From positions 3,534,001 to 3,598,000 of the forward strand of contig NC_013743.1 in assembly GCF_000025325.1 (NCBI RefSeq): a stretch of DNA of 64,000 bases. Direction: 5' to 3'. The notes beneath the pieces are model-generated. The model saw only the letters and a program-made list of their open reading frames with translations, was not told the origin of the DNA and searched no databases. Position numbers and translations under genes: made by a program. Source of the DNA: Haloterrigena turkmenica DSM 5511. GTDB taxonomy: Archaea > Halobacteriota > Halobacteria > Halobacteriales > Natrialbaceae. Position 1 is the stretch's first letter. Each line of letters starts with the position of its first letter. Of this stretch, positions 568 through 60,953 are shown one piece after another.

Positions 568-699
568 TCTAGTGAGAATAGTGTCGCCCTCAACGGCCGT
601 CGTACAATTGAACGGATAGTCTGGGTTCCTTCCAACTGCCTCTGTGCCTGCACACGGCTCAGTGAGACTCGAGGAACGTGGGGTTGAAAGGAAGGCCGT
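568..699. other. Non-coding stretch before repeat element A
   Basis: This stretch separates the stress gene from the hairpin repeat. I see no convincing ORF, RNA gene or promoter in it. Part of it resembles genomic spacer that has collected repeat-derived sequence. Confidence 0.4.
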
Positions 700-1020
700 A
701 TTCTGCTACCGTGGCAACGAGGAATTGCCACACCCTCCTCAACCGATTTCCGCTCGCGGGCCAACGGCCCGTCTGCTCACGGCGGCAAAGCCGCCGTCTG
801 TTCACGGGCGCGAAGCGCCCGTTCACATGGTCGGCGAGACCGGAGGTCTCGCCCTATTCGCACGGTCTGCGAGACCGAAGGCCTCGCACTACTCGCATGG
901 TTCGCGGAACCGTCGGTTCCGCGCTAACGCTCATTCGCTTCGCTCACTCGCTCATCCATCGCACGGTTTCAGACTACGGTTCGTCACTGGCTCACCGTAG
1001 TCCAGCGCGCGCCACTGCAC
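700..1020 (+). repeat. Hairpin-bearing dispersed repeat, long form, copy A
   Basis: One end (700-748) begins ATTCTGCTACCGTGGCAACG; the other (1002-1020) carries CAGCGCGCGCC. Both ends recur in copies at 29012-29373, 29445-29580 and 60772-60906. Between them lie six hairpins with three-base loops at 757-771, 780-796, 805-821, 834-852, 868-888 (one mismatch) and 903-923. They are joined by short spacers resembling TCRCAYGG. A further stem (973-979 with 995-1001, ACTACGG/CCGTAGT) sits near the distal end. ORFs crossing it read CYRGNEE-like peptides that recur in other copies and are not genes. I do not recognise a named family. Confidence 0.8.
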
Positions 1021-29011: not shown

Positions 29012-29373
29012 CGTGCGGCGGCGCGCGCTGTAGACGGTCCGAGCGAAGGCGAGGAGCGTCAACGACATCGTGCGAGGTCTTCACGAGTAGTGCGAGACCG
29101 GCGGTCTCGCATACCATGCGAACGGGCCGTACGAGGCGGTTTCACCGCCTCAAATTCGCGGCGCTGCACGCCGCGCATGGCCCGTGAGCAGACGTAGCGA
29201 GTGACGGCTCGGAAGACGCGAAGCGTCTTCCGGTGGATGAGCGAACGAGCCTGCGAGTGACCGTTAGCGCGGAACCGACGGTCCCGCGAACCGTGCGAAC
29301 GGATGCTTCGCATCCGTGAGCAGAAATCGGTTGGGGAGGACGAGACGATTCCCTGTTGCCAGGAGTAGCAGAA
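29012..29373 (-). repeat. Hairpin-bearing dispersed repeat, long form, copy B1
   Basis: Read on the minus strand, this copy starts with the conserved TTCTGCTACTCCTGGCAACA end (29373 downward) and ends at the GCGCGCGCC end (29012-29031). Hairpins lie at 29299-29317, 29268-29288 (one mismatch), 29211-29231 and 29091-29111. A nested unit follows: CGGGCC/GGCCCG outer arms (about 29123-29128 and 29179-29184) enclose two further hairpins at 29133-29151 and 29157-29175. Two of its hairpins match copy A's in sequence but in the opposite order. Confidence 0.8.
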
Positions 29374-29444
29374 CACTTCTCGAGTCCATTCAAGACACAC
29401 CGCAGCCGAGTACCACATTCGAAGGAGTGTGACTGAAGATACGC
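29374..29444. other. Spacer between head-to-head repeats
   Basis: This 71-base spacer joins the CTGCTACC-type ends of copies B1 and B2, which face each other. I see no gene or clear signal in it. Confidence 0.4.
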
Positions 29445-29580
29445 GTTCTGCTACCGTGGCGACGGGGATTTCCACACCCTCCCCAACCGATTCGCTCCCT
29501 TCGGTCGCTCATCCCTCGCACGATGGCATCGATCGGCCCTCACTGTCGTTCGGACACGATCGACAGCGCGCGCCGGGTGG
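29445..29580 (+). repeat. Dispersed repeat, short form, copy B2
   Basis: It begins GTTCTGCTACCGTGGCGACG and runs through CCTCCCCAACCGATTCGC and CTCATCCCTCGCACGATGG to CGACAGCGCGCGCC. It lacks the hairpin cassette of copies A and B1 and closely matches copy D in length and organisation. It ends about 136 bases before the MATE gene. The remaining 29581-29716 shows no gene. Confidence 0.75.
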
Positions 29581-60771: not shown

Positions 60772-60906
60772 CGTGCGGTGGCGCGCGCTGTGCCGCGGTG
60801 AGTGAATAACGAGCCGCGGCTCGAAGTCGTGCGAGGGACGAACGAGAGAAGCGAGTGAGTCGGTTGGGGAGGGAGTGGCACTCCTCGTTGCCACGATAGC
60901 AGGACA
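60772..60906 (-). repeat. Dispersed repeat, short form, copy D
   Basis: Read on the minus strand it begins CCTGCTATCGTGGCAACGAG (60906 downward), goes on through CCTCCCCAACCGACTCACTC and CGTCCCTCGCACG, and ends CAGCGCGCGCCACCGCACG. A 14-base palindrome (60810-60823, CGAGCCGCGGCTCG) takes the place of other stems. It lies between the sulfatase stop and the JAMM gene stop. Like copy B2 it has no hairpin cassette. Confidence 0.78.
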
Positions 60907-60953
60907 CTCGTCGTGGTCGGCGGCGTTCGGACACTCGCCACGGTCGACGATAT

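Follow-up and report, generated by a model that had tools for sequence, protein, structure and literature searches.

Double-hairpin cassettes nested in a structured, strand-specific repeat element of Halobacteria

The window, a stretch of 64,000 nucleotides from the genome of Haloterrigena turkmenica DSM 5511, carries two inverted copies of one haloarchaeal element, B1 and B2, between two genes that, from reading their translations, we take to encode a geranylgeranyl-reductase-like protein and a MATE-type transporter. The copies face each other by their GTAGCAG/CTGCTAC ends, as the initial annotation had proposed, across a gap that we count as 76 bases between positions 29371 and 29448 (the figure given there was 71). 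A third unit directly follows a gene that, again from its translation, presumably encodes a sulfatase-like protein. The features of these units are as follows.

29013–29371, plus strand: unit B1, the core enlarged by cassettes (from the family alignment and the matches to the covariance model R1); outer end GTGCGGCGGCGCGCGCTG at 29013-29030, inner end near 29371
29031–29062, plus strand: stem 1 (P2) of B1, with slightly imperfect arms at 29031-29040 and 29053-29062 (from the sequence, family covariation and the test of G.U against A.C mismatches)
29077–29234, plus strand: IN1 cassette of B1 at the site GTGCGAG|GGATGAG, its first hairpin holding cassette T1 and its second, GGAAGACGC-GAA-GCGTCTTCC, lying at 29211-29231 (from presence and absence at orthologous loci, e.g. 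L063 versus L182 and L044 versus L171)
29088–29192, plus strand: T-cassette of B1, TAGTGCGAGACC...GTGAGCAGA, placed after CACGAG, with its left hairpin at 29091-29111 and the stem CGGGCC/GGCCCG as its right one (from the T-cassette flank table and the ortholog in G005, which has no T-cassette)
29129–29178, plus strand: double-hairpin insert N, within the CGGGCC/GGCCCG hairpin of B1, with hairpins at 29133-29151 and 29157-29175
29236–29328, plus strand: tandem-G.A helix (P3) of B1 (from a column analysis of 50 units)
29264–29324, plus strand: T3 cassette of B1, TTAGCGCGGAACC...GTGAGCAGA, directly before AATCGG (same insertion present or absent in L039 versus L189, L037 versus L143 and L038 versus L172)
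29325–29371, plus strand: inner end of B1, AATCGGTTGGGGAGG and the inner hairpin region up to GTAGCAG, conserved in 50 aligned units
29372–29447: spacer of 76 bases between the facing inner ends
29325–29492: segment inverted with respect to the ortholog in G005 (L082), an inner 138 nt between perfect 15-nt inverted repeats AATCGGTTGGGGAGG at 29325-29339 and 29478-29492
29442–29578, minus strand: unit B2, a short core without cassettes (R1 E 1.4e-22)
60773–60908, plus strand: third unit, a short core without cassettes (R1 E 2.3e-27)

B1 reads as a core with an IN1 cassette, a T-cassette, a nested double hairpin and a T3 cassette, the last of which pushes the strands of P3 further apart. The sequence bears out the architecture first described for its centre: CGGGCC (29123-29128) pairs with GGCCCG (29179-29184), and the stem encloses two complete hairpins, GAGGCGG-TTTCA-CCGCCTC (29133-29151) and CGCGGCG-CTGCA-CGCCGCG (29157-29175); in copy A, also in the window, the same stem encloses just AAC on the plus strand (CGGGCC-GTT-GGCCCG on the minus strand, around 757-771). 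R1 recovers B1 as two matches, 29013-29131 and 29201-29377, the two halves scoring E 9e-10 and 8e-9, and none of 100 dinucleotide shuffles folds as stably as B1 (plus-strand z -4.7, minus-strand z -3.9). Given these shuffles, the covariance-model E-values and the 101 matching pieces of the repeat in the 5.44-Mb genome of this strain, the pair is not a product of chance. At the inner end of the core, for instance at 29331-29365 of the window, GGGGA could base-pair with TCCC(C) on the far side of the GTGGC/GCCAC hairpin, a putative pseudoknot.

The B1/B2 locus was compared in six species, the present genome being G000. The facing pair is kept in G005, whose B1 is missing the T-cassette that carries the nested insert; G001, G002 and G004 hold just a short piece of one outer end, and nothing recognisable of the pair was found at the orthologous locus of G003. 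Since G005 keeps it, the pair dates back at least to the split from that species, after which the cassettes of B1 have come to differ. Within the inverted segment, 111 of the 138 inner nucleotides are identical between G000 and G005 when inverted (alignment score 84 versus 8). Stem 1 is self-complementary in both of the orthologous B2 units of these two genomes (L082 in G005) but entirely different in sequence, as though it had been exchanged in one piece.

An alignment of 50 short units from five species yields a core of about 150 nt, in which GTGCGGTGGCGCGCGCTG is followed by a variable stem 1, by GYGCGAGGGATGAGCGA...GAGCGAATCGGYTGGGGAGG, by an inner hairpin and by GATAGCAG. The predicted consensus contains 14 pairs with changes on both sides. 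Among 131 unique stems 1, mismatches on the strand that runs from the outer to the inner end are G.U in 50 cases versus A.C in 7 (p 4e-9); these related sequences are not fully independent, and all four well-sampled species lean the same way. In the second core helix, P3, covarying Watson-Crick steps alternate with tandem G.A/A.G pairs, the tandem columns being kept in 50/50, 48/50 and 41-44/50 units. As G.A pairs become T.C mismatches on the opposite strand, only one strand is able to form P3. This predicted one-strand fold points to selection on a single strand, most simply as RNA. The hairpins of the cassettes, in contrast, are nearly perfect and show no G.U lean (6 G.U versus 5 A.C; Fisher p 0.02 versus stem 1), which fits palindromes at the DNA level, with few mismatches behind the comparison. 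The core had no match in Rfam 15 at the gathering score or E-value threshold, the best match being at chance level (E 4.9), and no description of this repeat was found in the open-access literature. Matches to the repeat occur in 29 of the 41 genomes searched, that of the present strain included, and the covariance model of the core matches 54 of 145 Halobacteria genomes. In a phylum-wide sample of 120 genomes, searched with strict filters and a capped number of candidates, it matches at least 3, which belong to the same family.

Longer units consist of short units plus double-hairpin pieces at fixed points. These cassettes, which we named T, T3, L, IN1, N and M, measure about 50-60 nt each. 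Orthologous units were identified by matching flanks, and the comparisons drew on about 200 genome stretches, designated here by L numbers. Among relatives, where the initial annotation had suggested looking, we found orthologous loci with and without double-hairpin inserts: a cassette found in one species is missing from another, its borders exact and its target not duplicated, and the rest of the unit is 90-96% identical. A 54-nt IN1 is present in L182 and absent in L063 (unit identity 96%), T-type cassettes of 58 and 61 nt are present in L039 and absent in L189 (94%), a 105-nt IN1 with its own nested double hairpin is found in L044 and not in L171 (92%), and an L cassette of 58-63 nt occupies the loop of stem 1 in L029 and not in L113 (90%), the reverse state being seen in L031/L125. 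At one locus, three species display three states: empty (L189), T plus T3 (L039) and IN1 plus T3 (L158). Such empty and filled orthologous sites are clean natural experiments for asking how bare hairpins move and how they come to grow into each other.

Each T, L and IN1 cassette contains two hairpins, with palindromes near both ends. The T-cassette is 58-61 nt long, and its ends (TAGTG... and ...GCAGA) are not inverted repeats; its 5' flank is mostly GCGA[A/G], and that of T3 mostly GCG. The exact core string of the T-cassette was found in 16 stretches, from named genomes of nine genera and from one uncultured Natrialbaceae genome. An archaeal bulge-helix-bulge intron was considered for the T-cassette and set aside by eye, the end pairing being absent in T3 copies.

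The organisation of the T-cassette can be written as TAGTGCGGGACC-loop-GGTCCCGCATACCATGCGAA|CGG-loop-CCGTGAGCAGA, with the target GCGAA|CG between its two hairpins. As the cassette carries its own target, later cassettes enter earlier ones and a nest results. Copy A contains three such nested generations:

697–1020, minus strand: unit A (copy A), core plus three nested T-cassettes (R1 matches 883-1020 and 697-780)
749–927, minus strand: outermost T-cassette (left end in the flank table)
772–891, minus strand: middle T-cassette, within the outer one at ATGCGAG|CGGG
797–856, minus strand: innermost T-cassette, 60 nt, within the middle one at GTGCGAA|CGGC

The initial annotation would have been refuted by a lack of strain variation together with a lack of other nested cases; instead, species vary, and B1 is one of many nested cases. 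In L175 a T-cassette lies within another T-cassette, at a site that is empty in G005, and in L140 one lies within an L cassette. Insert N recurs in the Haloterrigena turkmenica genome (L029, L030, L031 and L036), beyond it in a further genus and a further family (L010, L017), and also in L067, and is inverted inside the same stem in L200; insert M occurs in L041, L165, L179 and L222 and in Halopiger goleimassiliensis. In this last species, one hairpin has the loop AAC in L212 and a 50-nt double hairpin in L215, L217 and L219, with the same stem and the same flanks, and is thus empty and filled in one genome. These sequence comparisons support nesting by cassette insertion into hairpins as a process, which is what had been proposed from B1. 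The CGGGCC loop insert of B1 itself may have arrived either with its enclosing cassette or as a separate, later event at that locus, the only ortholog that keeps the pair, in G005, being without the whole enclosing cassette.

Presence and absence of this kind might also arise if the cassettes were old parts of the element, spread and lost by ectopic gene conversion and repeat-mediated deletion, so that no transposition would be needed. We regard this as possible but doubtful. IN1, T3 and L are always found at the same positions within the unit, haloarchaea lose element cores by repeat-mediated deletion (PMC3119063), and conversion could have caused the different stems 1 of B2 and its G005 ortholog. 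Yet just about 5 nt to the left of T3 are common to the recipients, units that gain a cassette keep orthologous sequence on either side of it (L039 versus L189), and cassettes are absent from most units, judging by unit lengths. Moreover, T-cassettes reside in hosts without the core, namely a TATAGTA-ended MITE-like element of the genome G024 (L197-L199), an IS1341-type transposon of Halobiforma nitratireducens (L224) and, as solo copies, Halorientalis, which favours movement of the cassettes over mere gene conversion among units. IN1, T3 and L may well be passed from unit to unit by gene conversion.

Several details of these hosts deserve mention. The G024 element has TATAGTA/TACTATA ends and tandem GA-type hairpins, and its adjacent tandem copies in L199 show the empty target GCGAA|CGGGG. 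At L224:7116-7440, a T-cassette follows tnpB and another double hairpin lies within the near-terminal palindrome of the IS1341-type transposon; this stretch occurs twice around an N, likely an assembly artefact, and is a single case with no empty counterpart. The search for the T-cassette also returned four haloarchaeal plasmid records, and none of the phage records searched.

As for the core, its units follow genes. By a crude gene calling that left many flanks uncalled, the outer flanking gene is directed toward the unit in 89 cases versus 41 (p 3e-5), and the inner flanking gene converges on it in 93 versus 52. Pairs of units face each other by their inner ends in 37 cases and stand back-to-back in 1, typically between convergent genes: where both flanking genes were called (n=16), both read into the facing pair in 11 cases and one does in 5. 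At the present locus only B1 fits a terminator model, since the MATE gene beyond B2 does not read into B2. Across 184 units, T is enriched 15-21 nt past the inner hairpin (43-55% at single positions versus a background of about 20%), and a C comes next; this pattern belongs to the sequence of the unit family as a whole and not to each copy. Intergenic termination in Haloferax involves a T stretch ending at a C residue, with hairpins upstream at some sites (PMC7237163), and the unit family has such a T stretch ending at C downstream of genes. From these sequence features we infer that the core is probably a terminator or a 3'-UTR element, and that facing pairs would serve convergent genes. If so, the transcripts of convergent genes probably end at a strongly structured 3' element that Rfam lacks and that many haloarchaeal genomes carry in dozens of copies.

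Mobility could also be proposed for the unit itself: as an element of the PATE/REP type, it would use its strand-specific fold for a single-strand transposase and not for an RNA function. The unit is indeed dispersed, with dozens of copies per genome, it is present or absent between sister species, and its strand-specific structure would fit single-stranded DNA as well, tandem G.A pairs being stable in DNA too. However, stem sequences vary freely while pairing is kept, although a recognised transposon end is usually constant in sequence; the copies are divergent, with no recent near-identical expansions; and both the location behind genes and the T-rich end are in keeping with a terminator, with no transposase associated. 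We therefore hold a mobile core to be rather unlikely.

The cassettes themselves enter at four kinds of sites: hairpin loops, GC-GA|A beside a hairpin tip, GAGCG|AATCGG at a helix foot, and the junction GTGCGAG|GGATGAG. The loop-targeting mechanism suggested by the initial annotation captures part of this, true loops being among the sites, but is too narrow. In its strict form, an enzyme specific for single-stranded hairpin loops would place cassettes there regardless of sequence, in line with inserts N and M in true loops, with the L cassette in the loop of stem 1, and with the SMR-A repeats, which insert within near-terminal palindromes of IS605-type elements (PMC3119063). IN1 and T3 lie outside loops, though, and the insertion motif of T is GCGA|A or GCGAA|CG, which makes such an enzyme improbable; a simple loop rule for all inserts was rejected on the IN1 and T3 sites, and a sequence or structure motif fits the whole set better. 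Least probable by far is an expansion of a functional RNA by local duplication and template switching with no mobile pieces: cassette hairpins are near perfect and have a tandem-GA style in common with the core, but the same cassette sequences turn up again in unrelated loci, genera and hosts, a pattern that is not given by local duplication, and the T-cassettes in unrelated hosts strongly weaken it.

The cassettes have hairpins near their ends and insert in a strand-fixed orientation, behind a fixed 5' flank and without duplicating the target. In these respects the process resembles single-strand transposition of the IS200/IS605 family, and an enzyme of this (Y1) kind supplied in trans may be what moves the cassettes. 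Seven cassette types and the core, compared by short-word BLAST with 10 TnpB loci of the strain's own genome and Y1 loci of its relatives, gave no convincing match, only matches of chance size, with the exception of a 21-nt piece of the core in L109 (E 5e-4). Because the cassettes have no convincing match to element ends in the Y1 and TnpB loci searched, we liken them to the IS200/IS605 type and do not file them as members. The sole trace of a Y1 transposase in the genome of the strain is a 38-aa fragment with a stop (G000:C1:1301393-1301506), alongside ten remaining TnpB matches. Intact Y1 genes exist in the sister species G003 and G005, several kb off the nearest listed units.

Taken as a whole, the observations are best explained, with a probability that we put at roughly 0.6, by a structured strand-specific 3'-end element in which mobile double-hairpin cassettes nest, a reading that joins the anatomy, recurrence, presence and absence among orthologs, nesting, strand-specific structure and after-gene position documented above. 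The core, probably a transcription terminator or 3'-UTR structure, would double as a platform on which cassettes of about 50-60 nt land. These would insert without target duplication at GC-GA|A, GAGCG|AATCGG, GTGCGAG|GGATGAG or hairpin loops, by single-strand transposition with an IS200/IS605 (Y1)-kind enzyme acting in trans, and the T-cassette's own target GCGAA|CG would admit later cassettes and so produce nests. Against this stand the lack of a linked transposase in our searches and the recurrence of IN1, T3 and L at the same point of the unit, which gene conversion could also explain. More tentatively, double hairpins of 58-60 nt might form a class of very small recursive mobile elements, with their own target between the two hairpins and an enzyme that recognises folded single strands, leading to a Russian-doll growth of a conserved structured terminator across Halobacteria.

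Among known systems, haloarchaeal intergenic terminators likewise lie downstream of genes and have a T-rich tract that follows a hairpin and ends in C (PMC7237163), but a repeated structure of about 150 nt with a tandem G.A helix is absent from that account, as is the word 'repeat'. REP, BIME and REPIN sequences, together with the insertion sequences that target REPs, are also dispersed extragenic palindromes, often alternating or facing, and serve as insertion targets (PMC1525189, PMC2817692, PMC3116915). The haloarchaeal unit differs in being longer and multi-helical, in its occurrence here in Halobacteria only and perhaps in having no RAYT gene linked, and its inserts, unlike REP-targeting insertion sequences, are themselves bare hairpins.

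The nearest known relatives are the IS605-related PATEs and the SMR-A repeats of Haloquadratum. Like PATEs and the terminal-only IS605-type elements of that genus (52 bp), the cassettes are too short for a gene and have no terminal inverted repeats, palindromes near their ends and no target duplication (PMC3119063), with a short fixed 5' target; in contrast to PATEs, their ends gave no match here to those of an IS605-type transposon with a Y1 or TnpB gene, and neither recursive self-insertion nor a structured 3'-end host is described in the portion of PMC3119063 at hand. SMR-A of Haloquadratum walsbyi provides the closest description (PMC3119063): short, transposase-free repeats that enter the palindromic regions of PATEs and IS605-type transposons, within their near-terminal palindromes and without target duplication, by a mechanism left unexplained, the mobilisation of these small repeats being called enigmatic in 2011. 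SMR-A elements are about 110 bp long, have prominent terminal inverted repeats and are commonly more than 95% alike (PMC3119063), whereas T-cassettes are two-hairpin units of 58-61 nt without terminal inverted repeats, whose stem sequences vary and which bring along their own target, and hence nest.
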